DNA from: Gammaproteobacteria bacterium
Lineage (GTDB): Bacteria; Pseudomonadota; Gammaproteobacteria; Pseudomonadales; Pseudohongiellaceae
Assembly: GCA_030828385.1 (NCBI GenBank)
Contig: JAURCS010000001.1
Span: 1-64,000 of the forward strand
Length of the DNA stretch: 64,000 bases
Direction of reading: 5' to 3'
Shown: positions 27,424-44,434 of the stretch, piece after piece
Position numbering within the stretch: position 1 is the first letter of the stretch
How the letters are laid out: each line of letters opens with the position of its first letter
Made by a program: the position numbers and the translations under genes
The notes under the pieces: generated by a model
Told to the model about the DNA's origin: nothing
Seen by the model: only the letters and a program-made list of their open reading frames with translations
The model's database searches: none

Positions 27424-27975
27424 ATGAACACTTGTTTTAATTTAACATTCATAAATGCCCTGAAAAAATTCATTGCGCTTTTTTTGACAGGGATTACTGT
27501 GAGTATTTCCTGTTCTACCTCTCTTACAGCACACCCTGATGAGAGTGATATTCCCGTACCCGTGAGTATCAATGCCCTGATGGTGACACTGATTGATCAC
27601 TCAGCGCATTACATCTGGGATTATGCGGCATTGGAACGGGAAATTTCCGACGATGAATGGCGTACCGTTGAATATTATGCGATTCAGCTTGCCGGCTCAG
27701 GCCCGCTAATGACTTTGGGTGGGTCGGGCAGTATGGATAATACCTGGGCGGCCACTGATTCCTGGGTAAGCTACTCACGCACCATGACCAATGCAGCGAT
27801 GCTGGCTCTGGATGCCGCCAAGAACAAGGATAAAGCCTTACTGGCGAGCACGGGAGACGTTATTGTTGCCAGTTGCGAGGGTTGCCACAATGCTTTCAAG
27901 CCTGGCGTTCCCACCGAGGGTATTATGCATGCCCCTGATTATGATTACCTGTACCACCTGTTTGAAAGAAAATAA
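27424..27975 (+). CDS. Cytochrome c-prime-like exported protein
   Basis: The 183-residue product has a hydrophobic signal peptide (about 12-35, cleavage likely near SLTA-HPD). The remainder is mostly helical with a single CEGCH heme motif at 151-155, about 28 residues from the end. A C-terminal CxxCH on a helical bundle is the pattern of cytochrome c-prime rather than class I cytochromes. Likely periplasmic; gas binding or electron transfer is a family-level possibility only. The ATG at 27424 is chosen because AGGAGG lies 10 bases upstream. A strong terminator follows. Confidence 0.65.
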   Translation: MNTCFNLTFINALKKFIALFLTGITVSISCSTSLTAHPDESDIPVPVSINALMVTLIDHSAHYIWDYAALEREISDDEWRTVEYYAIQLAGSGPLMTLGGSGSMDNTWAATDSWVSYSRTMTNAAMLALDAAKNKDKALLASTGDVIVASCEGCHNAFKPGVPTEGIMHAPDYDYLYHLFERK

Positions 27976-28141: not shown

Positions 28142-29578
28142 CTAGTTGGCTACCTTCACCCACTGACCAGCAGCAGGTTCACCAAAGGGATAGTCACCGT
28201 TCAATAACCTCAACATGTCTTCCTGATGTTCAGGGAGACGTGTCTGTCGCGCCAGGTCTGCGTAAGTGATTTTGCCATCGGCCTGGATGTAGCTAATCTG
28301 TACCGGATTGGCAAACAGGGTTTCATTACGAGCAATTGGCCGGAAACTTCGAACCGACTCCATTAACAGCTCATCACTGATTCCTTCTCCGGCTTTTGCA
28401 GTCAATATGAAGGCGCGCGGGCCATAGTAAAGTACAGCAACGCGTTCGCTGCTTTCGGGGTTTATACCGGTAAACCCGCTTAAGCCAAATTGAGAAAGAG
28501 GCTCAGACTGCTGCAGGTTTTCTATCCCCAGATTTTCGCGAATGAACAAGCGCGGCTCCTTTGACTGCTGCAATCGCTGTGCCTCCACTTTAATCATGCT
28601 ACTACCGTCAACACTGGCACTGGTCATAGTGGTAGTTGTTTCCTGTTTCGACCAGCCTTCAGGCAGCAGCAGGGTATAGTTGAAAAGGGATTGATAATAA
28701 CGATTTCGCTGATCCCCACCAGCGGCATTTTGCGGGCTGGGGCCAACAATCAAACCCGTAATTTGCTCACGGAAAACCACTGGATCTTCCTCGCTTGCCT
28801 GCCGGTCTGATAGCTCAGCGGCCTTGCCAACAACTTCCTGAAGACGCGTATCGTTGCGTGGATGAGAAGCAAACAGTCCATGGTAGCTTACCGCTGTTCG
28901 GTTGGATGTTCGCTTGGTGAAGTCCTCATGGTTCTTGAGTACTTCAATCACCTGCACCATGGCCAGAGGATCATAGCCGGCTTTGGAAAGATATTCGGCA
29001 CCGAGACTATCTGCTTCGAGTTCCATATCGCGTCCATAGCCGCTGATTAATGCACCGCTGATGAGACTGGTAGTTTCTCGCAGATCAACCCCGGTAGCGA
29101 AGATGAGCGCGATAGAGGCCGCATTGGCTGACCGGGCAGCGGTCTGTTGGCGCACCGCATGTCGAGCTGTGACATGACCTATTTCATGACCAAGCACAGC
29201 AGCCAATTGTGCTTCGGAATTCAGGTAGGTGAGCAAGCCACGGTTCACATAAACAAAACCGCCTGGCAGGGCAAAAGCATTGATGTCAGGGCTGTCGATA
29301 ATGGTAAAGACATAATCGAGTTCTGGCCGGTGTGAAACGGCGGCCATTTTTTGCCCGACCTTTTCCACGTAAGCCTGTAGTTCCAGTTCTTGATAAATGG
29401 GGTTTTGCTGGAGCATCTCCGCGTGCAGCTCCCGCCCTTTTTCAAGTTCGGCAGATTCGCTCATTAGCACAAAATTAGCGCCGCCTGTGGGATTACCTGC
29501 ACAGGCAGAGAGAACAAAAGCTATTGCTATTACCAGCACAGAGCGCAAGAGATTGCTTGATTTATATAAGCTTTCCAT
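28142..29578 (-). CDS. M48 family metalloprotease lipoprotein
   Basis: The 478-residue product has a lipoprotein signal with lipobox LSAC (Cys 26). An M48 zinc peptidase domain follows: HEIGH (131-135) with the third ligand in MELEADSLGAEYL (near 185). This layout matches BepA/LoiP-like periplasmic proteases that degrade misassembled outer membrane proteins. BepA carries C-terminal TPRs, which I do not see here; the C-terminal 200 residues are of a different, unrecognised type. It is the last gene of a long minus-strand run and starts 60 bases after the lipoprotein gene upstream, so it may belong to that transcription unit. Confidence 0.85.
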   Translation of the reverse strand: MESLYKSSNLLRSVLVIAIAFVLSACAGNPTGGANFVLMSESAELEKGRELHAEMLQQNPIYQELELQAYVEKVGQKMAAVSHRPELDYVFTIIDSPDINAFALPGGFVYVNRGLLTYLNSEAQLAAVLGHEIGHVTARHAVRQQTAARSANAASIALIFATGVDLRETTSLISGALISGYGRDMELEADSLGAEYLSKAGYDPLAMVQVIEVLKNHEDFTKRTSNRTAVSYHGLFASHPRNDTRLQEVVGKAAELSDRQASEEDPVVFREQITGLIVGPSPQNAAGGDQRNRYYQSLFNYTLLLPEGWSKQETTTTMTSASVDGSSMIKVEAQRLQQSKEPRLFIRENLGIENLQQSEPLSQFGLSGFTGINPESSERVAVLYYGPRAFILTAKAGEGISDELLMESVRSFRPIARNETLFANPVQISYIQADGKITYADLARQTRLPEHQEDMLRLLNGDYPFGEPAAGQWVKVAN

Positions 29579-29638: not shown

Positions 29639-30325
29639 TCAAGTCCCATTTATAAATTGTTTTAGCTGATTACCCAGACCATTACAGGCATTGGCTTCAA
29701 CCCTTGCTATTAACGGGATTGGTATGACAACCGCCGGCATATAGGATTGCCCGTTCGCATCCGTGCTGATTGAGCCAACACTGCTTTGGCTATCCAGGTG
29801 CCAGATTTCTGCTTCAAAGTTGGAATCATCCTGCCAGGTACCAAAACCAAAACAGCCACCACCACCCGGGCCAATGGTGCAGGAGATAGAACCGGACTGT
29901 TCTGAGCGTTCTGTAATACCATCCAGCCAGACAATATATTCAATGCCAAATTCGTCGAGTCTTTCTGCGGCGACATCCATGGACATCAGCTGTTCCAGAT
30001 GACCGGTACGCATGGGTGCAGTGCGCGGCTCAAAAAATGGAAACATGGCATCGAGGAATTCCTGTTCATCAACAACAGTAATTGAATTGTCACCGCGAGA
30101 GACCACATCAGCAACACAGCCGACAAAACTTTGTTCGGTTTCATAATTATTATTTTGACGCCTGCCAAGAATAACAATGGTTTCATCGGCATTGTTAATC
30201 GAAGTAGAGCTTTGCCGGAATTCATCAATTTCAGTTGTGGTGCAACTACAAAGAAAAAGCAGGAACGGTAAGACAAAAGCCGTTACAGGAAATGTGCTGG
30301 GGTTGAACAATGTAAGCTGTCTCAT
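29639..30325 (-). CDS. Lipoprotein of unknown function
   Basis: Starting at ATG 30325 it encodes 228 residues with a signal peptide ending in the lipobox LCSC (Cys 28). The mature protein has an alpha/beta pattern (IVILGRRQNNN, ITVVDEQEFLDAMFPFF, IEYIVWLDGITERS) and a Gly-rich turn (GPGGGGCFGFGTW). That pattern recalls proteins that measure or bind nucleotides or sugars, but I cannot assign a family. It lies downstream of a second lipoprotein gene (94-base gap) at the end of the VWA/ExbB-like cluster. Confidence 0.6.
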   Translation of the reverse strand: MRQLTLFNPSTFPVTAFVLPFLLFLCSCTTTEIDEFRQSSTSINNADETIVILGRRQNNNYETEQSFVGCVADVVSRGDNSITVVDEQEFLDAMFPFFEPRTAPMRTGHLEQLMSMDVAAERLDEFGIEYIVWLDGITERSEQSGSISCTIGPGGGGCFGFGTWQDDSNFEAEIWHLDSQSSVGSISTDANGQSYMPAVVIPIPLIARVEANACNGLGNQLKQFINGT

Positions 30326-30419
30326 CTTGGAGTCTCTGGATATGGTTTTACCCATCAATTACTTTATTGTGTTCACAATTTATATTCAATTTAATACCAA
30401 TCAATCTATGTTTCTATCT

Positions 30420-31100
30420 TTACTCTTGCATAACATTTTGAGAACGAAGCCACTCATTAATTTCAGGAATATTACTGAAACCCAGGGTAAAACTTGCCGC
30501 CAGGTCTCGCAGGGCTACATTAGCAGCATCGTTTATTCCCGCGTCCACCGATTGAAATGTTTCCTCGGGTGATTTGCCATATGCCGTCATCACCCAGTCA
30601 GCAATATAGTCGCCATTGGACTGGGCCAGCCTCATATTATATTTGACCCAGATTTCGTAAACATTGAGACGGGTTTTCTGGGGCAGGCCAACCTGGAATT
30701 CCTCGATGGCGGGAACAAACACCGCATCAATGTCACTCATACTCGAGGCGCTTTCCAGGCTGTCCAGCTGCACTACCTGTTCAAATACAGCCGGCAGCAT
30801 GGTATTAAAAAGTTCAAGCTGTGAAGCTCCGGAATTAATGATGTACTGGTCATCACCGGTATTATCATTTATCTCAATGAAGCTGTGATTGATGAAGGCT
30901 TCATCGTAGTAAACGCCTACAGTGAGTGGCAGCTTTTGCACTAATGGCGCAGGGAAGCTGCCCTCAATATTGATGGTTGTCGCTGAACAGGCTGTCAGCA
31001 ACACTATTATGCTCGCCAGGCTGTACTTGATAGCAGTCAGCTTTCCAATTTTTGGAACCTTGGACACTTTTCCTGTTATTAATTGAATCATTTTCATCAT
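30420..31100 (-). CDS. Lipoprotein of unknown function
   Basis: The 226-residue product has a signal peptide with lipobox LTAC (Cys 38). The mature part starts with a strand region PLTVGVYYDEAFINHSF and includes YEIWVKYNMRLAQSNGDYIADW. This is an alpha/beta layout reminiscent of small envelope lipoproteins that bind partners through a periplasmic sheet, but the family is not recognised. It is 98 bases downstream of the shorter VWA gene on the same strand and is probably part of the same unit. Confidence 0.6.
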   Translation of the reverse strand: MMKMIQLITGKVSKVPKIGKLTAIKYSLASIIVLLTACSATTINIEGSFPAPLVQKLPLTVGVYYDEAFINHSFIEINDNTGDDQYIINSGASQLELFNTMLPAVFEQVVQLDSLESASSMSDIDAVFVPAIEEFQVGLPQKTRLNVYEIWVKYNMRLAQSNGDYIADWVMTAYGKSPEETFQSVDAGINDAANVALRDLAASFTLGFSNIPEINEWLRSQNVMQE

Positions 31101-31198
31101 ATGCTACTGCCCGCGGGTATCGAGGGGTTTGGCCCGGGGGCTACATAGTTTACTCCAGTTTCTGTTTACATCAATATGCCGTGTTCATTGATGATTTC

Positions 31199-32200
31199 CT
31201 AGTAAAAATCATTAAGGCCAACAAAAGTACCGCCGTTTTTGCGCGCCAATTCACGCATCAGGGTAGCAAAACGTATGCCGGTAGACTGGTAACGGTCCGG
31301 CTGTGAAAAATATACGGGAAAGCCAATGCCATGGATTCTTACCAGGCGATTTCCTTCGCTGTCCTCCACGTTGATTCGATCTACGGTCTCGATCACATTT
31401 CGGATTGAGCCGCTACCGGGTGGAAATTCATCACCAAGGACGTAAAGGCTGATTTTTTTGCCCGGGTCATAGAAGTTACGAATTGCCGTGGTTATTCCTT
31501 CAACCGGGCTGGAATTACTAAAAGGATTCCAGGTGCGCAGGCGCTGCAGAATAGCTTGCCGGCGCGCCGGAGTATCCGGAATCCAGTCACCACGAAAGCT
31601 GGAAAACAGGTATTCTCCCATATCATTCATTACCTGGATGCCTTTCACTTCCGGGTAGATATCCAGGGTGTCTACCATCACTTCCAGCATGCGCGACCAG
31701 CTGTAGTTGAACATACTGCCGGAAGTGTCGATAAGAAAGATAATGTATTCACTATCTACAGGGACTCCACCCACCGATTCGTTGAGCTGGAGCTGGTCCA
31801 TATTATTTTGCAGACGTCGCATTTCATCCGTAAGTTGCTGGCGCGCCTGTGCCATTTGCCCTTGCAGGATATCGTCCTCGGTGGATTGCTGGCTGGTCGT
31901 ATTGAACTCTCCATTCAGGATGGATAACTCCCGGCGCAGGCGGGCAATCCTGTCGTCATATTGGGAGATTTGTTCATGCTTGGCATTAAGTTCACGGTTG
32001 AGAATATTGGTTTCTCCGCGAATCTCGAATAGCTGACGTTGCAATTCAAGTACACTGCCTTCAACTGGTGTATCTGATATTTCAAGCGTTGTGGGGGTAG
32101 ATGACTTGGTAATCATGATCAGTAGAATGATCGCACCAAAGCCACAAGACATGACATCCAGGAAGGAGACATTAAATGTTTCTGAAGTTCGTCTTGCCAC
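31199..32200 (-). CDS. VWA protein with ExbD/TolR-like membrane helix (333 aa)
   Basis: The first residues MARRTSETFNVSFLDVMSCG lead into a single transmembrane helix (about 13-31) whose pattern xxSFLDVM, with Asp 15, resembles the proton-channel helix of ExbD/TolR (xxxxIDVML). A coiled coil follows (about 50-140). A von Willebrand factor A domain with the MIDAS motif DTSGS (158-162) forms the C-terminal half. Topology would put the VWA domain in the periplasm. It is the shorter of two adjacent paralogues sharing the identical SFLDVMSCGFGA block. The ExbD-like role is my inference from motif and context. Confidence 0.8.
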   Translation of the reverse strand: MARRTSETFNVSFLDVMSCGFGAIILLIMITKSSTPTTLEISDTPVEGSVLELQRQLFEIRGETNILNRELNAKHEQISQYDDRIARLRRELSILNGEFNTTSQQSTEDDILQGQMAQARQQLTDEMRRLQNNMDQLQLNESVGGVPVDSEYIIFLIDTSGSMFNYSWSRMLEVMVDTLDIYPEVKGIQVMNDMGEYLFSSFRGDWIPDTPARRQAILQRLRTWNPFSNSSPVEGITTAIRNFYDPGKKISLYVLGDEFPPGSGSIRNVIETVDRINVEDSEGNRLVRIHGIGFPVYFSQPDRYQSTGIRFATLMRELARKNGGTFVGLNDFY

Positions 32201-32290
32201 AATTAATCCTGGCTACCCTTGTTTGCCTTGCTTGTATTTACCTGACTAAAGTTCATTTATGCTCTTATTCATATATTCAATGCGTTACTT

Positions 32291-33418
32291 TTATGGCCAG
32301 TCACTGGAAGGGCTTAAAAAAGAGCCGCCTGTTGAAACCGCAAGTTTCCAGTAAAGTGATGCGGCCATGGGATCACCTTCCAGAGGTGCCAGTACTATAT
32401 TGACCGGAATTCCGGGGGGTAATTTCCCCACGGCACTACGAAAAAGCTCTTCTCGCTCCCTGCCCGATACCGTGTTCTGGTTGCCATCAGGTCGGCGACT
32501 AAAAAGTCCACCTTCCCTGCTACCCAGTGTCGGCAGACCATCGGTAATCAGATAAATATTGTCAGGTAATGGATTCATGGCGGCAACAGCCTGAAATACG
32601 TTTTCCAGGTTAGTCCCGTTCTCAGGAATAATTTGATTAATTCTTGAAACAGCATCTGAAAGCTGGGCTTCATCAGCCACTTCCAACCAGTTGCCGTTAG
32701 TGCCGGGTATTAAGGGCTGAACTTGTTCATTAAAAGTATAAATTTGATACTGGCTGGGTGGTGGTAGCTGGGTAGTAAGCCAGTCAACGACCTTGCGCAC
32801 GCCAACCCATTTGTCTGAAGCAATCCTTGTTTCAACTGACATATTACGACGTCGAATAATATTAACAATGGTGTTATCCAGCATACTGGCGGATGTGTCT
32901 ACCAACACCAGAATGCGACTGCCGCCCAGAATCAGGCCGGTGAGATATTGGCGGTTACCATCACCCACATAAGGCCTGATAAAATTTCCGCTGAAAGAAT
33001 CCTGTGCTGCCCTCAGTCTTTCTAGTTCTTCCTCGAGGGTCTGGATATCAGACTTTAATTTTTCAACACTTTCCTTTTTAGCCAGTGTGGTGTTTTCAAG
33101 TTGAGCCAGTTCTTCAAGAAAGGTATCAATTTCCTCCTGGATTGAACGTGCCAGCCCCTGAGCCTCCACCATTTGAAAATCTACTTCTGAAATAGTATTA
33201 CGTACCCTGACCAGATTTTCCTGACCTTCGTTAATTTCTTCATTAAGCAGATTGATCTCGGCGGCAAGATCTGGATTATTTGCATCATTCTGCACCGTGG
33301 ACGAGTGATCCAGAATAAGAAAAATAAGTACTACTGCGCCAAAGCCACAGGACATGACATCCAGAAAAGACAGGCTGATAGGATTGAATTCACGTTTTGC
33401 GGCTCTGTCCTGTGCCAT
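32291..33418 (-). CDS. VWA protein with ExbD/TolR-like membrane helix (375 aa)
   Basis: The 375-residue paralogue of the neighbouring VWA protein has the same N-terminal membrane motif (LSFLDVMSCGFGAVVL, Asp 20, helix about 17-36). A Glu-rich coiled coil (about 50-140) and a VWA domain starting near residue 165 follow, with MIDAS DTSAS (174-178) and a later metal-binding Thr/Asp region (EGTNLENVF type, YLITDGLP). It begins 3 bases after the Hsp70/FHA-like gene, so the two are almost certainly co-translated. VWA domains bind partner proteins through a divalent metal; the partner is unknown. Confidence 0.8.
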   Translation of the reverse strand: MAQDRAAKREFNPISLSFLDVMSCGFGAVVLIFLILDHSSTVQNDANNPDLAAEINLLNEEINEGQENLVRVRNTISEVDFQMVEAQGLARSIQEEIDTFLEELAQLENTTLAKKESVEKLKSDIQTLEEELERLRAAQDSFSGNFIRPYVGDGNRQYLTGLILGGSRILVLVDTSASMLDNTIVNIIRRRNMSVETRIASDKWVGVRKVVDWLTTQLPPPSQYQIYTFNEQVQPLIPGTNGNWLEVADEAQLSDAVSRINQIIPENGTNLENVFQAVAAMNPLPDNIYLITDGLPTLGSREGGLFSRRPDGNQNTVSGREREELFRSAVGKLPPGIPVNIVLAPLEGDPMAASLYWKLAVSTGGSFLSPSSDWP

Positions 33419-33421
33419 GGC

Positions 33422-34735
33422 TTATTCGACCTGAATGAGCTGGAGCGGCGTGCTTGCGCCAGGTAAATTAATGACATCGCCGAGCTTGAGAGCTGAAGAT
33501 GAAGCAGCGCTGGAGCCGTTAATTTGTATAGCGCCTGAACCACTATTTTCGAGCTGCACAGACTCTTTGGTAACGGAAAATGTGAGAACTCCATTTTCAC
33601 CTGCTTCCAGGTAAATGGCGTTATTATTTTCTTCATCGCTGTTCGGTCCGTATTGAATAGATACAGGGAGTGAATAGGCGCGATGATTAACCAGGATATG
33701 AGAAGGCCGAGTATCGGATTGTTCTTTTTTCGCTCGAGTACGTTGCTGTTTGCTCTGGGGCAGGCTTGCGGTAAAACTCAATGAGCCAGCATCTCCCTTG
33801 ATATGATCAAGGTGAGTCAGGCAGTTTTCAATTAGCATGGCTTCCCTGACCGCAGTAATATTTTTTAGATACAGGGACACGCCGGGCAAGCTGGCATCAG
33901 ACTCCGGTAAATGCAGGTCATAATTATTTCCGGCAATGGCTTCCAGCTCGGAATTAATGCGAGCAAATATATTCCGTACTCTTTGTTCAAAATGGCCGCG
34001 GTTAATTTTTGCCTGGTAAACAGAGCCCTTGTTGTTAATTTCCATCAGAATTTCATTATCTTGCAGTGAGCGTCCCAGCCAGTCTTCAAGCTGGTTATAT
34101 ACATACTGCTCGGTTTCTGCATTATGATGAGGGTCAAAGCGGCTTTGCTTAATAAATTCATCGGTCACCATGTTGACCCAGCTATCATGGAGTGCAATCA
34201 GGCCTGTGCCTGGAATCTGAATCACTTTGTCCCGTGTAGGTTTGTTGTCCTGTAAGGAGAAGGTGGTCAGCACAGTCTGATGTAACTGGATATCGAGATA
34301 AACAGTCATAGCCGGATTATCGGTATTGCCCGCCATTAACAGTGGCATATCTAGAAGGCCGACGGCATCGAATTCGCAGGATTGAACCAGGCCAAGCAAG
34401 ATGGATAGCTGATTGCGGTTGTAGTTACTGGGAACCGCAAAAATAACTTCATCTTTCAGGTCATGCTGGCGCGCTATATCATTCAAGTGGGCAAACGCCA
34501 GGTCTGCCTGATGACGAAAGTGATTGTTGCTGTTTACCAGGGGATCAAGGCTTAGTTGAGACCAGAACTGGGAAAACGTATGGCGCGGATGAAGCCGGGC
34601 AGTTTTTCGGGCATCTTCACCGAACACCGGATTTTTGTTAGCAATATTGGCAAAGCCGGGACTCTGGATAAGAATTTCATCCTCGTTACGCAGGCAGATA
34701 TTGCGGTCATTCAGCTCAATGATGTGCACACTCAC
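33422..34735 (-). CDS. Hsp70/actin-fold protein with FHA-like C-terminus
   Basis: The 437-residue cytoplasmic protein has no membrane segment. The N-terminal 310 residues have actin/Hsp70-type elements: the DEVIFAVPSNYNRNQLSILLG strand-helix followed by LLDMPLLMA (compare Hsp70 ITVPAYFND...NEPTAAAL), and a second strand TVYLDIQLHQTVLTTF in the position of the phosphate-2 loop, though without a clear DxG. The last 90 residues are beta-rich with an INGSS...LKLGDVINLPG pattern like a degenerate FHA domain. The GTG start at 34735 overlaps the stop of the ExbB-like gene by 4 bases, indicating translational coupling. Domain calls are by pattern, without a database search. Confidence 0.6.
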   Translation of the reverse strand: MSVHIIELNDRNICLRNEDEILIQSPGFANIANKNPVFGEDARKTARLHPRHTFSQFWSQLSLDPLVNSNNHFRHQADLAFAHLNDIARQHDLKDEVIFAVPSNYNRNQLSILLGLVQSCEFDAVGLLDMPLLMAGNTDNPAMTVYLDIQLHQTVLTTFSLQDNKPTRDKVIQIPGTGLIALHDSWVNMVTDEFIKQSRFDPHHNAETEQYVYNQLEDWLGRSLQDNEILMEINNKGSVYQAKINRGHFEQRVRNIFARINSELEAIAGNNYDLHLPESDASLPGVSLYLKNITAVREAMLIENCLTHLDHIKGDAGSLSFTASLPQSKQQRTRAKKEQSDTRPSHILVNHRAYSLPVSIQYGPNSDEENNNAIYLEAGENGVLTFSVTKESVQLENSGSGAIQINGSSAASSSALKLGDVINLPGASTPLQLIQVE

Positions 34736-35550
34736 GCCTGTTCATCCTTTGCCGGAACCTGAAGATGTCTGATCAGATAATCATCACAATAATTCTGTGT
34801 GTCCAATACCAGACGATCCTGCATCAGCTGCAACTGGTACAGCAAAAACATAATAAGAATACTTACCACCAGAGCGATAAAGGTGGAGTTAAAGGCGACA
34901 CCCAGGCTGGCGGTAACACCGGCGATATCGCCGCTTGCTGCCTTGTGCGCCTGACCAAGTGCTTCACCGATACCGCGCACAGTACCCAGGAAGCCGATGG
35001 AAGGAATAGCCCAGGCGATATAGCGCACGATGGTCAGTTCGCTTTCCAGCCGGTCTGCTTCCGAGTTACAGGTATCTTTGATGACAGAAGCAACATCGGG
35101 AATATTTCGGGTAGAGCCAAAGCGTTGCAACGCCGCCAGAAGAGCGCGTGGCAAAAGGTATTGTCTTTCTTCTACGGGGAGTGCCTGCACCGGCCGCGCA
35201 TAATCACGCGCGTCTTCCGGTAAGATACTCATTCCCTCTGACAGATTGAGCAGTGAACGATTAAGTAATTCGTTTTCTTTCCTGTTGCGGTAAATCTTCA
35301 GACCGATTATGGACATGGCCCAGAGCATCAGGATGATACAGGTCTCCTGCTCGAAGTCTTTCATCACCACATATAATGAACGCTCGGAAACAAAATCCGG
35401 GTCTGCAGCCTGCATTATGGCTTGCTGCTCCATTTGCAAATCCGCATTGGGCCGAATAACTGCTACATAAACTGCATGGACTAAGATCACGGCAATGATC
35501 AATGCAAAGACCTGGTAGAGAAAATCGGAAATAATGCCCTGCTGTTTCAT
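34732..35550 (-). CDS. MotA/TolQ/ExbB family channel subunit
   Basis: The 272 residues have four membrane helices: about 11-31, 70-85, 174-193 and 211-240. The last two with the connecting IPSIGFLGTVRGIGEAL (182-198) and GVTASLGVAFNSTFIAL (211-227) are the conserved MotA/TolQ/ExbB core. The Thr in FLGT occupies the place of the channel Thr. The family forms pentamers around a dimer of Asp-bearing helices (ExbD, TolR, MotB, ZorB). Here the only Asp-bearing single-helix proteins nearby are the two VWA proteins downstream, so I infer they are its partners. Confidence 0.85.
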   Translation of the reverse strand: MKQQGIISDFLYQVFALIIAVILVHAVYVAVIRPNADLQMEQQAIMQAADPDFVSERSLYVVMKDFEQETCIILMLWAMSIIGLKIYRNRKENELLNRSLLNLSEGMSILPEDARDYARPVQALPVEERQYLLPRALLAALQRFGSTRNIPDVASVIKDTCNSEADRLESELTIVRYIAWAIPSIGFLGTVRGIGEALGQAHKAASGDIAGVTASLGVAFNSTFIALVVSILIMFLLYQLQLMQDRLVLDTQNYCDDYLIRHLQVPAKDEQA

Positions 35551-35577
35551 AAAAATGCCTTGTTCAGTTTTCTGTAT

Positions 35578-35829
35578 TTAAATGTCTATAGGAAAGGCGA
35601 CAGGTAAGTCTTCTGTAATTTGTTCACTGGGTACAAAATTTTCATCTATCGCGTCTAAAGTAATTTCACCATCGGGCTCAGTTATATTTTCTTCCAGTGG
35701 TCGACCAGGGTCTTCACTTGCCACTTCAGTTTGCTGTTCTTCATCTGGGGCAGCCACATCATTTTCAGCCGCATTAACACTCAGGCTGGAAAAAACCACA
35801 AGAGCCATCAATTTTTGGTAGAGGGTCAT
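35578..35829 (-). CDS. Small acidic exported protein, unknown
   Basis: The 83-residue product has a Sec-type signal (MTLYQKLMALVVFSSLSVNA, cleavage near residue 20). The mature peptide of about 60 residues is very rich in Glu and Asp (ENDVAAPDEEQQTEVASEDP...) and is predicted disordered, with a hydrophobic tail ending VAFPIDI. It has no cysteine. It lies 6 bases after the PEGA protein gene and 27 bases before the channel gene, so it is embedded in the cluster. Confidence 0.55.
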   Translation of the reverse strand: MTLYQKLMALVVFSSLSVNAAENDVAAPDEEQQTEVASEDPGRPLEENITEPDGEITLDAIDENFVPSEQITEDLPVAFPIDI

Positions 35830-35835
35830 AGCTGA

Positions 35836-37935
35836 TTACTCAAGATAGCGCGCGACCCTGAAACCGACATCATCACGGGACTCATTATTGTAGTCGCGAA
35901 AGCTGAGTCTCAATGCTGTAATTGTGCCGTGAGCCCAGCTTGAGCCTCTTATTACATGGTAGGTCCCCTGTACCGGACCCAGAGGGTCTGTTTCCATGGC
36001 AGTACCAATCTGGCCACTTGAGCCGTAATAATCATGCACCCACTCTGCAGCGTTGCCACCCATATCAAAAAATCCGTTGCTGTTAGGTGCAAAACTCCCC
36101 ACCGGCGCTGTTCCCAGATAACCATCATTGTAGTTGGCAATAATCCTGCCCAGAAAAACACCAGCGGAGATGTCAGCATAATTGCCATGATTGGCTGGCG
36201 GGGGTAACTCTGGGCCCCAGGGGAATTTGAGCAGGCTGTTTGGATCATTATCGACTCTTGCTGCCCATGCCCATTCAGCTTCTGTAGGGAGTCTGTAACC
36301 GATACTGGCAGGATTGAAGCCACTAATTTTACCGTTTTCTTCAAGGTAAAAAGGCTCGAGCCCTTCCTCGGTACTCAACCAGTTACAGAAAAGGGCGGCC
36401 TGATCCCAGGTCACCCTGACTACGGGCTGGTTGTTATTGCTCAAGGTTCTGCCTTCAATTACGCCGGAAGAATGCTCCTTGTCGAAGCGGGCAAACTGGC
36501 TATTGTTGACTTCCATCAGGGAAAGATAAAAAGGACGTGTCAGATTTACGTTACGCAGCACCTCATTGGCCTGACGCCCCGGCTCCCTTCTCGAGGCCCC
36601 CATCTGGAAGCTACTCGGATAAATCAGTTTCATGGATTGCCCGACAGCATTGGTGATAAAGGGCTTGATTGATTCCAGACGTTGCTCTTCAAGTGTCTTC
36701 AGGCGGACATCCAGTTTTTGTTCCAGACCGGGTCGGGAAACAAAATCGGTTTCAAAAGTAACGTATCCATCGCGTTTGATTTCAAGATGTTGGGTAGCGG
36801 CAAGTAGCTCAATGGTCTGGTTGGCATTACCCTGTAATTCTCCATTCACATAAAGTTCTGCGTCTGCGGGTATAGCGCTGATTTCTACAGAGCTGAAAAT
36901 AGGGTCAAGATTGACCTGTAAGGAGATTTCTTCTTCGGGACGGGTTGTAAAGGAGCGCCGGGTTTCCTGATAGCCATTAAGGAAAAAGGAAAGCTCATGA
37001 GTGGTGCCGGGTGGCACGATGATTTCAAGTGGTGTTTGTCCCTGAAACACGCCATCCATGGTGACATTGGCATTACTGGGGCTTGATTGCAGTAGAACCA
37101 GGCCGTCGGCCTGTTCCAGCTCGATTAACGGCAAGGTCATCGTCTGTCTTGCAATCACTGCTATATTTTCTGTCCATACTTTGTGAGCGGGTAGCTTCAC
37201 CAGAATTTCATGCTCCCCTTCGAGAATTTCTGCCACCAGTGGTGTTTGCCCGCGATCCTGACCATCGACAGAAACTACTGCGCCGGCAGGGCGGGTATTA
37301 ATTGAGACTTCAGCCCAGGCGGGTAACAATTCAATATCCAGGCGCTGTTTTGTTTGTCGCCCTTCCATAAAAATGGCTGTTTCAAACGCCTGGTATCGAT
37401 CCAGTGTGACGGAAACAATATGATCACCCGCGGCTACTTCGAAATCCGTCAGGGGCGTTTCTCCTGCCATCTGGCCATCTATAAAAACCTGCGCGCCATT
37501 AATATTGCCACTGTTTAAAGTTAAAAAGCCCGGAAGTGGCTGCATGTTGATGACAAAGGTTTGTGCCTGTTGATCAGTTACAGTGAGGTCGGTGTCCATG
37601 GCGTAATAACCTTCGGCTGTTACCGTGACCGGAAGGTCACCCTTGAGAACCAGAAAGCGCGGGCCGATTTTTATTGCCAGGGGGCTTTCGACATTAACGA
37701 TGCTGGTTGCCGGTGTGACATCCAGATAAACAGACTTCGCCGAAAGTACAAACCATGCTGCACTGGCAAATATAAGGAAAAAAGCAGAGAGAATAACTTT
37801 GACCGGACTAAGCTTTAAGCTGAATTTTTTTGAGGTTTGACCGACAGGAGTAAAATCAATCGGCTGGATGGGTTCTTCCAGATTTTGATTTCCGTTGGTA
37901 TTGCTCAAATGATTCTTGATGTTGTCGTCAGACAT
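35836..37935 (-). CDS. PEGA-repeat protein with formylglycine-generating-enzyme-like domain
   Basis: The 699-residue protein has a short cytoplasmic N-terminus and one membrane helix (46-66). Four PEGA repeats follow (about 135-205, 206-275, 276-345 and 346-415; each with a GxxVxVDGxxxGxTPL type motif). A C-terminal FGE-sulfatase/SUMF1 domain (about 430-699) shows GYRLPTEAEWAWAAR, FPWGPELP, MGGNAAEWVHDYYG, RGSSW and GFRVARYLE. The region after RGSSW lacks the cysteine pair that catalyses formylglycine formation, so this is unlikely to be a true FGE. PEGA repeats occur in cell-surface proteins of uncertain function. Confidence 0.85.
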   Translation of the reverse strand: MSDDNIKNHLSNTNGNQNLEEPIQPIDFTPVGQTSKKFSLKLSPVKVILSAFFLIFASAAWFVLSAKSVYLDVTPATSIVNVESPLAIKIGPRFLVLKGDLPVTVTAEGYYAMDTDLTVTDQQAQTFVINMQPLPGFLTLNSGNINGAQVFIDGQMAGETPLTDFEVAAGDHIVSVTLDRYQAFETAIFMEGRQTKQRLDIELLPAWAEVSINTRPAGAVVSVDGQDRGQTPLVAEILEGEHEILVKLPAHKVWTENIAVIARQTMTLPLIELEQADGLVLLQSSPSNANVTMDGVFQGQTPLEIIVPPGTTHELSFFLNGYQETRRSFTTRPEEEISLQVNLDPIFSSVEISAIPADAELYVNGELQGNANQTIELLAATQHLEIKRDGYVTFETDFVSRPGLEQKLDVRLKTLEEQRLESIKPFITNAVGQSMKLIYPSSFQMGASRREPGRQANEVLRNVNLTRPFYLSLMEVNNSQFARFDKEHSSGVIEGRTLSNNNQPVVRVTWDQAALFCNWLSTEEGLEPFYLEENGKISGFNPASIGYRLPTEAEWAWAARVDNDPNSLLKFPWGPELPPPANHGNYADISAGVFLGRIIANYNDGYLGTAPVGSFAPNSNGFFDMGGNAAEWVHDYYGSSGQIGTAMETDPLGPVQGTYHVIRGSSWAHGTITALRLSFRDYNNESRDDVGFRVARYLE

Positions 37936-37959
37936 CTGGTTATCAGCTCTTGAAAATGA

Positions 37960-39516
37960 TTACAGTATTTCTTCAACACACTGCACGGTGATGACTGGTG
38001 ACTTGCCATCAAAACCCACAATAAACTCTTCCCTGACATCACGAAATCCCTCCCTGATACCTACTGCCACATAGGATCCGGGTTCAAGGCTAAGCGTATG
38101 GCGGGTAAATTGACCAAGACTTCCAACCTGATAAACAGTGACATCTGTAAGCGCATCAGACTGCAATATTACTTCGACAGGTTCGGTGGCACTCTGAATG
38201 AAATTTCGCAGAGTATTTAACTGAGCGTTCAATCTTGGCCAGTTACCATCAATTTTAACGGCTTCGTTGTAGATACCAACAGCTTGTTCATAAACGGCAT
38301 TTTCTGCAAGGCGCAGTGGATCGTTGTTGATAGTTTCCAGATAGTTATCCAGATTGTTGCGACTATTGGCACGGCTTTTCCCTTCGCGTGCCGAGACCAC
38401 ATTTTCGTCAATAGCAAGCGCTTCATTATATTCAGCCAGTGCTTGCTGCCACTGCTCCTGATTTTCAAATGCGTTGGCAGCATCAAGATGAATGTTGATT
38501 GCGCTCAGGGTCATCTGGTCAATAGTCTGCTCCAGCGCGGATTGGGCTTCGGGGGACTGGGGTTTCAAGGCCAGTGCCTGTCTAAACGATGTTTCGGCAG
38601 CTTCCGGTGCATTGGACGCCAGCGCGCTGAACCCCTGCGACATGGCGGCAGAAAAGTCACGATCTAGGATATCAGTATTAACCTGTTCAAGCAGGGCAGC
38701 GGCACCAACATGGACGGGGTCAATTGCCAAAGCCTGACGGTAAAATTCGCGCGCACTTTCAAATTCACCAGCATCATGTGACAGTCGGCCCTTTGCTATA
38801 ACATCAAGTACTTCAGTAAGTACCTGGGCGCGATCATAACCATTTACCGCGTCGGCACTATCTGGATTAATTAAGATGGCAATACTGAAAGACTCTTCAG
38901 CCAGAGCAGGATCGTCATCCAGAATGGCCTGCTCACCAGTGGCGAGATAACGATCGAACACATCCGGCAGGCTGATATCCAGCCTGGTCAGTATTTCCAG
39001 CCCTTGCTGATAGAAAGTGGCAGCGCCGATAAAGTCCTGGCTCTGATAGGCTGCATCGCCCTCGCCGGCCAATGCAAAAACGCTTTTGATATCGGTTTCA
39101 GCCCAGGTCTCAACTTCTTTTTCTTCTAGTGATTCCTGCAGATCGAGCAGTTCAGCCAGAATATTCTGCGCGGTTTCCCGTTGTCGTAATTTTTGCGCTT
39201 CTTCAAACGGGGCGACAGAATTTACGGCAGCGGCGGTATTTGAAGGTGTATTCACCACTACTACACTGCTGGTAGAGGGATCCGGCGGTGTAATCAGGCG
39301 TGGCAGCACAAAAATAACGCCGGCCACCAGCACCAGTAATAAAAAGAAAATGCCGCCAAGGATTTTGGACTGTTTCTTTTTTTCCTCATCACTGCGACGA
39401 ATTTCCTCAAAGCCCAGAGGCGACGTAGCAGTGCCACCCGCTGCTTCTGGAGGCGCAGACTTTCCCGTCAGGTTGATATCTGCAGGTGTGATATTGTCAA
39501 AATCTGAATCAGCCAT
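37960..39516 (-). CDS. Membrane-anchored TPR protein
   Basis: The 518-residue protein has a charged cytoplasmic N-terminus and one transmembrane helix (52-73). About 350 residues of tetratricopeptide-like helices follow, with repeats such as GAATFYQQGLEIL, AEESFSIAILINPDS, AREFYRQALAIDPVH and ALAEYNEALAIDE. The C-terminal 80 residues form a beta-rich PEGA-like domain (VEVILQSDALTDVTVYQVG, LEPGSYVAVGIREGF). TPRs usually assemble complexes. It precedes the PEGA/FGE gene by 24 bases. Confidence 0.8.
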   Translation of the reverse strand: MADSDFDNITPADINLTGKSAPPEAAGGTATSPLGFEEIRRSDEEKKKQSKILGGIFFLLLVLVAGVIFVLPRLITPPDPSTSSVVVVNTPSNTAAAVNSVAPFEEAQKLRQRETAQNILAELLDLQESLEEKEVETWAETDIKSVFALAGEGDAAYQSQDFIGAATFYQQGLEILTRLDISLPDVFDRYLATGEQAILDDDPALAEESFSIAILINPDSADAVNGYDRAQVLTEVLDVIAKGRLSHDAGEFESAREFYRQALAIDPVHVGAAALLEQVNTDILDRDFSAAMSQGFSALASNAPEAAETSFRQALALKPQSPEAQSALEQTIDQMTLSAINIHLDAANAFENQEQWQQALAEYNEALAIDENVVSAREGKSRANSRNNLDNYLETINNDPLRLAENAVYEQAVGIYNEAVKIDGNWPRLNAQLNTLRNFIQSATEPVEVILQSDALTDVTVYQVGSLGQFTRHTLSLEPGSYVAVGIREGFRDVREEFIVGFDGKSPVITVQCVEEIL

Positions 39517-39571
39517 GGCGTGCTGCTCTTGAATAGTGAATTAGCCCTGATCCAGGTCGGCATTTTGCTCA

Positions 39572-40765
39572 CTATAAATCCGAGCTTGTGGCCTCCCCGA
39601 TATCATTGGCATAAATATCCGCGAGCAGTTCACGCCATTGTTCATACTGGGCTTCAACCGAGCCGGAAAGCGTGATAGTGCGCTGTTCCAGTTCGATAGT
39701 CTGTGGCGCAATTTCCATCTCTAGAGAATTACCAAGTTCGGCCAGGGCTTCCACATGCATTTGCCGCTCATCACCCTTGCTGAAAGCATCTTTTATGAGC
39801 CAGCCACCGCTGGCAATAATTACCGGTGAGGAATAATAAGCTGCGGCATTATTACTTTGAGTGGCCGCTATTCCACCAATTATTGCTGCCACACCCATGA
39901 TCATATTACGCCTCGCATCGGCCGCAAGCCGGTCCATTTTCATCACTTCTTCATAACTCATGCGGCGGTACTCGGTATAGGGCGATTCCATCTGGCGCAC
40001 AAAGTTGGAATAGTAATCCTGGAGGGCATCCACATAGAGATAGTCCCTTTCGCGAATATCCTCGATACGGTTTATGACAGGGTCATTTTCTGCAGGCAAG
40101 CGTGTGACCTGAAGAATGCCGTCACGATCTTCTTCCAGATAATCGTCGAAAATCTGCGGGGCAAAATCGCGGGCAAACTGAATCTGGGAAACTGTCCTGA
40201 TATTTAATACTTCCTCGCGACTGATATTGCGCTGTTTATAAGCAAGCAGGTCATTGGCAATCTTGTTGAAGAGCCCCTGAAACGCATCTTCACTTCGTCG
40301 CATACGCGGGTCATAGCTGTATTTACTGACAACTTCCTCATATTCCTTATTGATCCAGGTTGCTCCTGTGGAGTCTTTTACATTGACCTGCAGGCGCATG
40401 GTTTCTCCGTCAGACTGCAGGATAGTGCCGGTAATAGCCAGATCACTGCTGGACAGATCGCCTGGTACAACCCTGACAACTCCCCAGTTACCGCTATTTT
40501 GCAAGGCACTGGCAAGATTGTATGAGGCAAAGTAGGTTTCTGCCATGCGCACATCGGAAAAGGTTAATTCTTCCCGGTTACGCGGAATATCATCCAGACC
40601 AGGCTGGAAAATGCCAATGCCAATGTCCAGAAGCTCTTCCTCAACAACCCCGTCACTATCTGACTTGATCGGGGTGAATGATGTGCTTTTCACCGTCTGA
40701 GTAGAACAGGCGCTGACACCTGCCATCAGTAATAAAAAGAATAGTGGTCTAAACTTTCCTAACAT
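39572..40765 (-). CDS. Lipoprotein, unknown, with glycine-rich hydrophobic segment
   Basis: The 397-residue product has a lipoprotein signal with lipobox VSAC (Cys 20). The mature part has an alpha/beta region (WGVVRVVPGDLSSSDLAITG and LQVNVKDSTGATWINKEY) of a kind seen in lipoproteins that assemble peptidoglycan- or secretion-linked complexes. A hydrophobic Gly/Ala stretch (MIMGVAAIIGGIAATQSNN, about 292-310) could be a membrane or glycine-zipper segment. I do not recognise a named family. It lies between the Ser-rich lipoprotein and the TPR gene. Confidence 0.65.
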   Translation of the reverse strand: MLGKFRPLFFLLLMAGVSACSTQTVKSTSFTPIKSDSDGVVEEELLDIGIGIFQPGLDDIPRNREELTFSDVRMAETYFASYNLASALQNSGNWGVVRVVPGDLSSSDLAITGTILQSDGETMRLQVNVKDSTGATWINKEYEEVVSKYSYDPRMRRSEDAFQGLFNKIANDLLAYKQRNISREEVLNIRTVSQIQFARDFAPQIFDDYLEEDRDGILQVTRLPAENDPVINRIEDIRERDYLYVDALQDYYSNFVRQMESPYTEYRRMSYEEVMKMDRLAADARRNMIMGVAAIIGGIAATQSNNAAAYYSSPVIIASGGWLIKDAFSKGDERQMHVEALAELGNSLEMEIAPQTIELEQRTITLSGSVEAQYEQWRELLADIYANDIGEATSSDL

Positions 40766-40886
40766 AACCGGATTCCTTTCATTATTTTTTCAATAGTTAC
40801 CGAATGAGTCACCAAAATTATCAAGTTCAAATTGTGATACGTATGTGACCATGTTTTGGGATTCAACATTATTATTCAACCCCGAG

Positions 40887-42068
40887 TTACTGGCCAACAC
40901 CGGTATAAGCCCGGTACTCATCCCAGAGTTTTTCCCGCAATTCAGGATCGGGTTCTGTCATGGCAGCTTCCCGTAACTGTCTGGCTACAACATCATCATT
41001 GTTGCCGTTTGGAATATCTTCGGGTACCGGAAAGGTTTCGGGCTGATTGTTGTTGGAAAAATCGCCCTGTCGACTGGCATTACCAGCAGGCATAACACCA
41101 CCACCGGTTGAGCCTGGGGGAGCTGAAGCCATCACAATAGGGCCACTGGCACTGCTGCCTTCACCGCCGCCATCAGCGCCACCACCGCCGGAACCACCAC
41201 CAGACATGACGCCGCTGCCAGCTTCATCGGCTTCAGATTGCGCGCGCTCGCGTTCACCGAGAATCATACCGTCAAATTCAGCAAATCCTTCATTAAGTCT
41301 TGCGTCCAAAGCTGCGCGGCGCTCAGAAGCCGTCATCACCTGACCCCGACCGGCGGAAAGATCTGCAAAAGGATCATCGCCATTGGTCTGGCCACCACCA
41401 GCCGAACCTCCTGCTCCAGCTGTCGAATTGCCGTCGAAGCCGCCATCAGCACCAGCTTGCTGGCCCTGACTGCTTTGGCCGCCATTTTGAGAGCCAGTCT
41501 GCCCCCCCGTCTGGCTACCACTTTGCTCGCCGCTGGCACCGTTATTTTCAAGGCCGCTATCAGCAGCCTGATCACTGCCAGAGGATTCCTGACTGCCCGC
41601 AACCTGGGGTAAGGACTCAATGCCACCATTCGAAGAGGATGAATTGCTGCCTTCTGTCCCGCTTTGCTGGCTCTGGGAAGACTGGCTGTCGCTGCCCTGG
41701 TTGCCGCTATTGCTGCTGATAGTAGGCAAGCCTGGCGAGCCTGGCATACCCGGGGAACTACCCGGCATACTGGACGAAGAGCTGGTGCTGCTGGATGAAG
41801 CGCTGCTGCTCGATGAAGAGCTGCTGGACGAAGAACTTTGCGAGCTCTGCGATGAGCTGGAACTGCTACTCGAGGACGAGCTTGGCCTGCTTGGAGGAGC
41901 GCTACTACTGGAAGAAGATGAAGATGAGCTGGGCATACTGGGGGATGATGAGCTGGAACTGGAGGTGCTCTGACAACCGGCAATGATCAACAATGACGCG
42001 CCCAGCGCCACCGGCAATAAAGGTGAGATGAATTTCTGCATTATGGTCTTTTTACTTGATCTTGCCAT
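40887..42068 (-). CDS. Serine-run-rich lipoprotein
   Basis: The 393-residue product has a signal ending in lipobox IAGC (Cys 32). About 70 residues almost wholly of Ser with some Pro and Gln follow, then Ser/Gly/Gln/Asn-rich disordered sequence, and a conserved-looking C-terminus with SERRAALDARLNEGFAEFDG and REKLWDEYRAYTGVG. The Ser runs are encoded by mixed codons (AGC, TCC, TCA, TCG), which suggests selection for serine rather than a microsatellite expansion. Such linkers let lipoproteins span the periplasm or reach the surface. This is the first gene of the VWA/ExbB-like cluster; the ATG at 42068 follows an AGCAGG site. Confidence 0.7.
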   Translation of the reverse strand: MARSSKKTIMQKFISPLLPVALGASLLIIAGCQSTSSSSSSSPSMPSSSSSSSSSSAPPSRPSSSSSSSSSSSQSSQSSSSSSSSSSSSASSSSTSSSSSMPGSSPGMPGSPGLPTISSNSGNQGSDSQSSQSQQSGTEGSNSSSSNGGIESLPQVAGSQESSGSDQAADSGLENNGASGEQSGSQTGGQTGSQNGGQSSQGQQAGADGGFDGNSTAGAGGSAGGGQTNGDDPFADLSAGRGQVMTASERRAALDARLNEGFAEFDGMILGERERAQSEADEAGSGVMSGGGSGGGGADGGGEGSSASGPIVMASAPPGSTGGGVMPAGNASRQGDFSNNNQPETFPVPEDIPNGNNDDVVARQLREAAMTEPDPELREKLWDEYRAYTGVGQ

Positions 42069-42418: not shown

Positions 42419-44434
42419 TCAGTCGGGGTTTCTTTCCAGCATAAGGTTGCCATATGGATCACAGGTTGCGCGCCATGTTGGTGCCAGCCAGGTGGTGGCA
42501 TTGGTTTCCACCAGCAGTGCGGGCCCCGAGACGCTGTTTCCAGAACCCAGCTGCGCGCGATGCACCACCGGAACAGCCTGTTCCATCCCGTAAATAGTGG
42601 CTTTGCTGGAAATTGCGCTATTCAGGTCAGGACTGAGACTGGTTTCAAGTATCGGAGCCTCTTTAATCTCGCGCATACTCAAACGCAAATTCACCAGTTC
42701 CAGCGGGCTGTCCAGCCTGTGTCCGTATCGCTGTTGATGAGCATTGTGAAACTGTTCACGGGTCTCATTGACGCTAGTCCATGGAATGGTCAGACTGGTT
42801 GATTGTCCCTGATAACGCAGGTCAGCCCGGCGTTCCAGGTGGGTGTTTTCCGCGCTAACCCCCTCTTCCGCCAGTTCCTGAAGCCCTTGAGCAGCCATTT
42901 TTTCGAAAATATCGTCACTTTCCAGGGGGTCAAGTTCGTCAAGTAACACCTGATGTGTCCGGGAAAGCTGACGTTCCACTGGCGCCAGAAACATTCCCAT
43001 AGCGGATAAAACCCCGGCATGCACAGGAACCATTGCGCTATTCATGCCCATGGCTTCCGCCAGAGCGCAGATATGCAGCCCCCCGGCGCCACCAAAACAG
43101 CATAATCTGAAGGTTTTTGGATCGTGTCCGCGGGCAACCGAAATGACCCTCAGTGCCCTTGCCATATGCTCATTGGCAACCCTGATAATGCCTGACGCGG
43201 TTTCTTCCAAGCTTAAAGATAATGCGTCGGCAAGGGGCTGAATGACAGCTCTGGACGCCGCAATATCAAGGGCCATTGAGCCCCCAAGAAAAGCATCGGC
43301 ACGGATTCTGCCTAGTACCAGGTTGGCATCTGTCACCGTAGCAAGAGTGCCGCCCTGACCATAGCAGGCTGGCCCGGGGGTGGCTCCGGCAGACTGCGGA
43401 CCTACCTGTAATAATCCGCCCGCATCAACCATTGCTACCGAGCCGCCACCGGCGCCAATGGTATGCATATCGACCATGGGAACAGCGACCGGGTATTCAC
43501 CGATACGGCCCTCTGTGGTTAAGTTTATCTCCCCATTAAGTAAGGCAACGTCAGTAGAGGTGCCACCCATATCAAAAGTGAGTAATCGCTTTTGTTGGGT
43601 GAGTCTGGACAGAAAACTGGCGGCCGCCAGACCCCCGGCAGGGCCTGAAAGCAGCAGGTTTACCGACTTGCGTGAGGCCTGTTGAGCATCAATAGTGCCC
43701 CCCGAAGACTGCATGACAGAAAGCCTGGATGGCTGTGTACCTGCTTTAAGCCGAAGCAGGTACTCACTAACCAGCGGGCCGAGGGTAGCATTAAGCCAGG
43801 TTGCAATACCGCGTTCATATTCCCGGTATTCGGGGAGGACCTCAAAGGAACTGGTGATAAAGGGGGCGTAATCCAGCTTATCCTCAAGAAAACTGGCGAC
43901 GGCTTGCTCATGGTCTGGATTAAGGAAGGAAAACAGCAATGATATTGCCACTGCATCGGGTTTTTGCTGCTGCAGGCTTTGCAGAAGTGCGTTCAGACTC
44001 TCATGGTTGATAGGCTCGAGTTCCTGGCCATGAGAACCAATGCGGCCGTCGGCTTCAAGACATAACTCTCGAGATACCGGGGCAGGAATCGGAGGTGACT
44101 GCAGGCGGTACAGATGTGGACGTGTCTGCCGGGCAATGGTCAGAATATCAGCGAAACCGGTATTGGTAATGAAGGCGGTTTTAACACCCTTGCCTTCCAG
44201 TGCGGCATTGGTTGCCACGGTACTGCCATGTACAATTTTTACCTGGCCATTGCGCACGTCCCCGGCTAGACCCATTTCCTCGATCCCCTGTAGAATGGCC
44301 TGCTCCGGCGCGCCGGGGGTGGACAGTACTTTGTGGGTTCTGAGTTCTGAAGCTTTGCTGGTGCCTTCGCTGGACGGGCTGGCAAACAACACGAAGTCGG
44401 TGAAAGTACCACCTGTATCTACACCTAGAATCAT
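42419..44434 (-). CDS. Hydantoinase/oxoprolinase family protein, HyuA type
   Basis: The 671-residue protein opens with the ATP-phosphate motif ILGVDTGGTFTDFVLF, the start of the HyuA/5-oxoprolinase ASKHA domain. It contains LLTFDMGGTSTDVALLNGE (second phosphate loop, about 288-306) and DMHTIGAGGGSVAMVDAGG. The family includes ATP-dependent N-methylhydantoinase A and acetone carboxylase beta subunits. The partner HyuB is not adjacent, so the substrate is unknown. It is divergent from mutM. Confidence 0.85.
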   Translation of the reverse strand: MILGVDTGGTFTDFVLFASPSSEGTSKASELRTHKVLSTPGAPEQAILQGIEEMGLAGDVRNGQVKIVHGSTVATNAALEGKGVKTAFITNTGFADILTIARQTRPHLYRLQSPPIPAPVSRELCLEADGRIGSHGQELEPINHESLNALLQSLQQQKPDAVAISLLFSFLNPDHEQAVASFLEDKLDYAPFITSSFEVLPEYREYERGIATWLNATLGPLVSEYLLRLKAGTQPSRLSVMQSSGGTIDAQQASRKSVNLLLSGPAGGLAAASFLSRLTQQKRLLTFDMGGTSTDVALLNGEINLTTEGRIGEYPVAVPMVDMHTIGAGGGSVAMVDAGGLLQVGPQSAGATPGPACYGQGGTLATVTDANLVLGRIRADAFLGGSMALDIAASRAVIQPLADALSLSLEETASGIIRVANEHMARALRVISVARGHDPKTFRLCCFGGAGGLHICALAEAMGMNSAMVPVHAGVLSAMGMFLAPVERQLSRTHQVLLDELDPLESDDIFEKMAAQGLQELAEEGVSAENTHLERRADLRYQGQSTSLTIPWTSVNETREQFHNAHQQRYGHRLDSPLELVNLRLSMREIKEAPILETSLSPDLNSAISSKATIYGMEQAVPVVHRAQLGSGNSVSGPALLVETNATTWLAPTWRATCDPYGNLMLERNPD

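Follow-up and report, generated by a model that had tools for sequence, protein, structure and literature searches.

The closest described relatives of the gene cluster considered here are predicted motors in which a TolQ-like channel is combined with a pair of vWA proteins, each bearing a transpore helix; the cluster itself lies in a 64,000-nucleotide stretch of DNA (hereafter the window; positions 1 to 64,000 of contig JAURCS010000001.1) from a Pseudohongiellaceae gammaproteobacterium whose draft genome (GCA_030828385.1; 149 contigs) measures 2.62 Mb. According to PMC12204202 (2025), membrane-tethered vWA proteins, most often as heterologous pairs, co-occur tightly with tolQ homologues that have no adjacent tolR or exbD, and their transpore helix carries a conserved Asp. 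In the AlphaFold 3 predictions of that paper, a heterologous pair of vWA proteins forms a dimeric axle inside a pentamer of the TolQ-like protein, the Asp pair lying within a ring of Thr residues. The family is described there as occurring "predominantly throughout Proteobacteria and Verrucomicrobia", and its authors state that no deletion phenotype has been reported for their first vWA family. The literature searched contains the motor core of this family as a prediction only. The cluster in the window resembles these motors in that a TolQ-like gene lies beside two different adjacent vWA genes, again in Proteobacteria, with a helix Asp in each vWA protein and, in this genome, no tolR, exbD or motB beside the channel; the likeness is drawn from the paper's description and not from its Idiomarina sequences. 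We think it reasonably probable that the product of the operon is a trans-envelope machine powered by the proton motive force and belonging to this TolQ and paired transpore-helix-vWA family.

Eleven open frames on the minus strand form one compact cluster at positions 29639–42068, as judged from the open reading frame (ORF) list and Pfam, and all eleven are present and open where the initial annotation, made from the letters of the window, had placed them. In order of transcription they are SER, LP2, TPR, PEGA/FGE, SAC, MOT, HSP, VWA1, VWA2, LP9 and LP10. Behind them on the same strand lies the gene of an M48-family metallopeptidase lipoprotein (28142–29578; Pfam 1.1e-38), which that annotation overlooked and which is a probable twelfth member of the cluster; where the fetched stretch of a nearer relative extends that far, it comes after LP10. 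The tight spacings first reported proved exact, MOT and HSP overlapping by 4 bases and gaps of 3 (HSP to VWA1), 6 (SAC to PEGA/FGE), 24 (PEGA/FGE to TPR) and 27 bases (MOT to SAC) separating the others. The cluster had also been called undescribed-looking, which fits the accessory genes and not the motor core. The main text of PMC12204202 names no PEGA/FGE, Hsp70/FHA, FPxDI, LP2 or SER gene ("Hsp70", "PEGA" and "formylglycine" have 0 occurrences there and the lone match to "FHA" is "FhaC"; figure 4c and the supplements lie outside this comparison), and a licence-limited literature search without preprints found no description of the accessory parts and the FPxDI motif discussed below. Since the core is already predicted in PMC12204202, the central model of the annotation is supported but not new; what the present analysis supplies is a parts list in which a core is separated from a looser layer.

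The two putative axle proteins, VWA1 (375 amino acids (aa); 32291–33418) and VWA2 (333 aa; 31199–32200), both start with a helix containing F-L-D, the transpore helix, with its Asp at position 20 in VWA1 and 15 in VWA2, and continue into a coiled coil and a VWA domain with the metal-site motif DxSxS (D174-x-S-x-S and D158-T-S-G-S, respectively); VWA1 has a C-terminal DWP. The earlier recognition of two VWA proteins was confirmed for VWA1 by Pfam (VWA_2, 8.5e-6; at 26.8 bits just below the cut-off of 27) and for VWA2 by way of its family. Alone, VWA2 matched VWA_2 weakly (0.044), while 3 of 22 members of its family matched below 0.01, and its profile is homologous to that of VWA1 over most of its length (hhalign 99.4%, E 7.6e-22). 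VWA1 and VWA2 are homologous yet distinct proteins with adjacent genes. Searches of solved structures with either profile returned coiled coils for the most part; VWA2 also matched integrin alpha-M (0.12). The buried helix Asp is found in all 120 VWA1 proteins compared and in 118 of 119 VWA2 proteins, the exception having unknown residues in the motif; for locus L157 a long ORF was counted as VWA2, and the helix motif is still present in it. The patterns used for the metal-site motif matched 119/120 and 114/119.

MOT (272 aa; 34732–35550) was annotated as a MotA/TolQ/ExbB channel and matches Pfam MotA_ExbB at 2.6e-15, with an extra N-terminal membrane helix recognised by eye. All 23 aligned MOT sequences have both T190 and T223, and these two residues are in register, in a weak alignment (E 0.03), with threonines of solved TolQ that we take to be the functional ones. 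The ExbD family (PF02472) has no match on the contig that carries the operon; its matches in this genome lie only on two other contigs, C74 and C116, and on C74 a MotA_ExbB gene closer to TolQ than MOT stands beside an ExbD gene, a pair that is probably this genome's own tolQR. The idea that the genome is devoid of ExbB and that the motor replaces Ton was dropped: all 12 other family members searched have 3–5 ExbD-family matches, so that the two in this draft genome may reflect assembly loss.

A survey of gene neighbourhoods indicates that the channel and both VWA genes travel together and that their order is recurrent in other genomes, and on this ground the clustering is more than chance. 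We fetched 38 stretches from relatives, searched them by phmmer with the window proteins and added another 100 loci, some of them from genomes already represented; removal of 18 of the 138 as duplicates by the VWA1 tail left 120 distinct loci, with two clusters of a different kind (L061 and L062) kept out of the set. Because loci were chosen for holding VWA1, these counts measure company and not spread. Matches among the 38 stretches numbered 38 each for VWA1, VWA2 and HSP, 37 for MOT, 35 for LP9 and M48, 34 for LP10, 32 for SAC, 31 for PEGA/FGE, TPR and LP2, and 29 for SER; the corresponding figures for the 120 distinct loci are 119 for VWA2, 116 for MOT, 111 for HSP, 105 for PEGA/FGE, 101 for LP9, 100 for SAC, 99 for TPR, 96 for LP10, 95 for M48, 94 for LP2 and 90 for SER. 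VWA2 comes immediately after VWA1 in 119 of the 120 (38/38 in the first set and 99/100 in the further set), and LP2-TPR-PEGA-MOT-VWA1-VWA2 follow one another in order in 90. With SAC left aside, 26 of the 38 relatives' loci have the eleven remaining genes in this order and on a single strand (16 by strict script and 10 whose sole extra is an upstream HyuA match), as do 58 of the 100 further loci. Among the other 12 of the first set, five, all of one genus, have LP2 at a different place, two (L033 and L034) are rearranged, four (L042, L052, L058 and L060) hit a contig end and one (L054) is without LP10 and M48; across both sets, most loci without the full order are cut, split or reduced.

Spread was followed through VWA1, which was found in 40 of 58 relatives, comprising all 37 members of the same family (with the source genome among them) and three of the 21 genomes from other parts of the order. 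Across the class 37 of 369 genomes matched, 31 of them strongly and six (E 7e-4 to 3e-8) treated as weak, and across the phylum 15 of 398, of which 12 belong to one family outside the class. The order SER-LP2-TPR-PEGA-MOT-VWA1-VWA2 is retained in four of the five loci fetched from that family, all four with the SAC end, the fifth being a 6-kb contig. HSP, LP9, LP10 and M48 had no match in these outside-class loci, nor in two loci inside the class (L148 and L149), and these four genes are thus not essential to the core. As the outside-class loci keep the core genes without them, the core is SER, LP2, TPR, PEGA/FGE, SAC, MOT, VWA1 and VWA2, and HSP, LP9, LP10 and M48 are a later or looser layer. 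No VWA1 match was obtained in PLSDB, hence no plasmid carriage was seen.

The stator with a periplasmic VWA output proposed in the initial annotation is well supported by this co-occurrence, by the Asp in both helices and by the Thr pair of the channel. In the machine that we favour, the VWA1:VWA2 axle, with one helix from each protein, would sit within a ring of five MOT copies in the inner membrane and be turned or kicked by the flow of protons, and the coiled coils would pass this motion to the VWA heads. The heads may then act on PEGA/FGE, TPR and an outer-membrane LP2 assembly, in the way that GldM acts on GldK or TolA on TolB, while SAC would dock through its C-terminal end and HSP could serve as a cytoplasmic adaptor that gates or tunes the motor. 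The most likely task is Tol- or Gld-like mechanical work at the outer membrane, which might consist in stabilising the membrane or in moving or assembling lipoprotein parts; export comes second.

SAC (83 aa; 35578–35829) is a small acidic protein with a signal-like start by eye; its presence as an exported protein had been noted, and its fixed C-terminus, FPIDI in the window, had been overlooked. An end of the form F-P-[VAIST]-D-[IV] is found in 98 of 104 distinct loci, the last residue being V once and otherwise I, and one other ORF in the same DNA has an end of this type. An earlier, looser count with duplicates included placed the SAC end near MOT in 120 of 133 loci, and in L151 a SAC with an FPxDI-type end is present, too far from PEGA/FGE for the counting rule. 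Synonymous codons vary under the motif, and the FPxDI end is under protein-level selection. It is most likely a docking peptide for a periplasmic domain, and our first guess is that a VWA metal site takes the SAC Asp or the C-terminal carboxylate. As a five-residue C-terminal handle that presumably binds something, the motif makes the question of which part receives the force directly testable, and Pseudohongiella, Parahaliea and Pseudohalioglobus include hosts with strain records that might be used for genetics.

Among the accessory parts, PEGA/FGE (35836–37935) combines four PEGA domains (Pfam 1.8e-46) with an FGE-like domain (FGE-sulfatase, 5.4e-39) and an N-terminal membrane helix recognised by eye, and TPR (518 aa; 37960–39516) has an N-terminal membrane helix, again by eye, and TPR repeats (TPR_2, 1.1e-17), both in agreement with the annotation. 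Formylglycine-generating enzymes carry a catalytic Cys pair near the C-terminus. The FGE-like domain is without a conserved pair of this kind: across 102 sequences there is no majority-Cys column in the C-terminal segment, and residue 517 alone is Cys in more than half. LP2 (397 aa; 39572–40765), a lipoprotein, had no convincing Pfam match, and a profile search of solved structures returned nothing. Its predicted N-terminal alpha/beta domain, which is followed by long low-confidence helices, is of the PelC/CsgG/TolB-N/FlgT type and lends some support to the earlier suggestion that parts of the machine reach the outer membrane. LP2 was matched in 27 of the 369 genomes of the class, 26 of them among the 31 with strong VWA1, and among the 58 relatives in the same 40 genomes as VWA1 plus one weak partial match. 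A second LP2 paralogue lies elsewhere in this genome (L194:5950-7050) and also occurs in many genomes of the family, with no Pfam match.

HSP (437 aa; 33422–34735) is probably cytoplasmic, and had been annotated as an Hsp70/actin-fold protein with an FHA-like tail. Neither part has a Pfam match. The predicted model (mean pLDDT 87.5) retrieved Ssz1/DnaK in a structure search (best E 2.9e-17, query TM-scores about 0.5–0.6), so that a predicted Hsp70/actin nucleotide-binding-domain fold is well supported. The FHA-like tail is the weaker part of the assignment; it is beta-rich in the model, and a full-length profile search of solved structures gave weak matches to EssC (0.0066), Ki-67 (0.15) and KIF13B (0.19), the matched parts of which we take to be FHA domains, alongside the Hsp70 protein Ssz1 (0.063). 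ATP hydrolysis by Hsp70/actin-fold ATPases depends on phosphate motifs. Inspection of HSP by eye shows family-conserved LND- and QLHQ-like stretches in place of the glycine-rich motifs, and the protein would seem to be without standard ATPase motifs, its nucleotide motifs being degenerate.

Several points weigh against our reading of the operon as a TolQ and paired transpore-helix-vWA machine, beginning with the lack of HSP, LP9, LP10 and M48 matches in the distant loci. MOT is a weak TolQ relative, scoring 35.8 bits with its nearest NCBIfam model, TolQ (TIGR02796), against a cut-off of 221. When compared with TolR/ExbD, the helix profile of VWA1 aligns Asp on Asp weakly (probability 11.5%, E 0.0026), and the best match of the VWA2 profile falls elsewhere; we do not take this comparison as proof. 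Five strong-VWA1 genomes of the 369 (G144, G269, G368, G370 and G373) had no LP2 match, and one genome (G241) has an LP2 reading frame interrupted by a stop but no VWA1 match; moreover, 11 of the 26 shared genomes, the source genome included, contributed sequence to the LP2 model, so that the test of LP2/VWA1 co-occurrence is not fully independent. Domains of the type seen in LP2 are widespread in lipoproteins (LptE, PqiC and TraT are also listed), and a shared fold shows no function. The 5:1:1 stoichiometry, the outer-membrane place of LP2 and the partner of SAC are features that we infer.

Among established systems, Tol-Pal (TolQR-TolA-TolB-Pal-CpoB) likewise has a TolQ-family channel, a domain of the TolB-N type, here in LP2, and a TPR protein; it differs in that MOT falls below the TolQ model cut-off and that the operon's axle bears VWA heads, and neither a beta-propeller nor Pal was found in the operon by Pfam or NCBIfam. 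GldKLMN/PorKLMN, which serve type IX secretion and gliding, also set a 5:2-type motor beside an FGE-like protein, but GldK is a lipoprotein that forms a separate family, and the FGE-like domain of the operon, for which GldK (TIGR03525) is the closest NCBIfam model, reaches 105.1 bits against a cut-off of 350; to our knowledge GldM has no VWA domain. The best-placed alternative, which we nevertheless regard as unlikely, starts from these resemblances: the operon would encode a secretion or surface-assembly machine whose motor, acting by way of an outer-membrane assembly centred on LP2, powers the export or the anchoring of a polymer or a protein, on the model of GldLM powering the type IX system or of PelC and CsgG serving exporters. 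The LP2 domain type does occur in PelC and CsgG, both outer-membrane exporter parts, and GldK, the closest NCBIfam model to the FGE-like domain, is reported in contact with GldM (PMC9389320). However, at 105 of 350 bits the GldK cut-off is far off, and none of the twelve conserved genes was recognised by Pfam as coding for a barrel, a secretin or a cargo.

We would be rather surprised if the operon encoded a trans-envelope machine belonging to none of the Tol, Ton, Mot, Gld, Agl and Zor systems, in which a VWA heterodimer would act as a clutch whose metal site grips the free C-terminal FPxDI end of SAC, with proton-driven motion conveyed via PEGA/FGE and TPR to an LP2 ring in the outer membrane and with an FHA-tailed, Hsp70-like pseudo-ATPase in control. 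It is very doubtful that the operon is a sensor instead of a motor, with a ligand on the VWA heads gating proton flow through MOT and HSP/FHA reporting to the cytoplasm; HSP does accompany most loci (111/120), and in a sister cluster described below, genes for FHA proteins, PP2C and a kinase-FGE protein accompany a channel of similar type, but the most distant loci have no HSP match and Pfam found no kinase or phosphatase in the operon of the window. Zorya (ZorAB) shares a MotA-family channel, and MOT has a weak ZorA match (14.4 bits); no ZorB or other Zorya match was listed for the ten proteins scanned (for VWA1, among the best 25 of 26 matches). A role as a defence system was rejected, PADLOC having given just coiled-coil matches, a weak TPR match and the weak ZorA match.

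The Agl-Glt machinery includes FHA and VWA proteins, and AglRQS-Glt is made up of another gene set; we know of no VWA heads on AglQ or AglS, and the operon's hosts are mostly aquatic gammaproteobacteria for which we know of no gliding. A surface motility or adhesion machine of this kind, with VWA heads moving adhesion complexes along the envelope, is the least probable reading and scarcely credible to us, for although the parts are similar (one TolQ-like channel with two different MotB/TolR-like partners, AglQ and AglS; PMC9389320) and gliding is raised in PMC12204202 for its first vWA family, no Glt protein was recognised by Pfam among the twelve proteins or by NCBIfam among all but SAC and M48.

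A sister motor cluster (L061:7059-15610) encodes an FHA protein, a MotA_ExbB channel, a second FHA protein, PP2C, a helix-bearing protein of 249 aa and a kinase-FGE fusion; these are followed by a protein that matches PPC at the borderline and by a trypsin-FHA protein. The 249-aa protein has SMSALDLFASAMGAF near its start, and its output part is different. From this cluster it would seem that motors of this type are modular. A helix-bearing protein of the same kind was seen in another relative (L062:9440-10138), where no channel gene was recognised by eye among neighbouring ORFs of at least 120 aa.

The remaining members of the operon are lipoproteins. SER (393 aa; 40887–42068) is Ser/Gly-rich and has no Pfam match, and its C-terminal segment R.AA..E.DP....LW.EYR.Y is conserved in its family. 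LP9 (226 aa; 30420–31100) and LP10 (239 aa; 29639–30358) were matched in nearer lineages only; with their profiles, solved structures yielded nothing convincing for LP9 and nothing for LP10. In the outside-class family, the conserved VWA1 helix begins upstream of the first in-frame ATG, GTG or TTG (L143:10552-10640, also L145 and L147), so that a CTG or other rare start seems likely. Two records of metagenome-assembled genomes (MAGs) titled Klebsiella pneumoniae (L094 and L133) carry the operon with VWA1 proteins 55% and 51% identical to that of the window, identities in the range of other environmental MAGs, and the titles look wrong.

Between positions 27000 and 45000, Rfam gave no conserved RNA element above threshold, and neither promoter-like sites (28, against 19.1 (sd 3.7) in shuffles) nor terminator-like sites (17, against 14.4 (sd 3.9)) were decisive. 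Outside the operon, a gene on the other strand at 27385–27975 has a borderline cytochrome c' match and was matched in 9 of the 38 loci, and a hydantoinase/oxoprolinase-type gene at 42419–44434 was matched in 10 of the 38.

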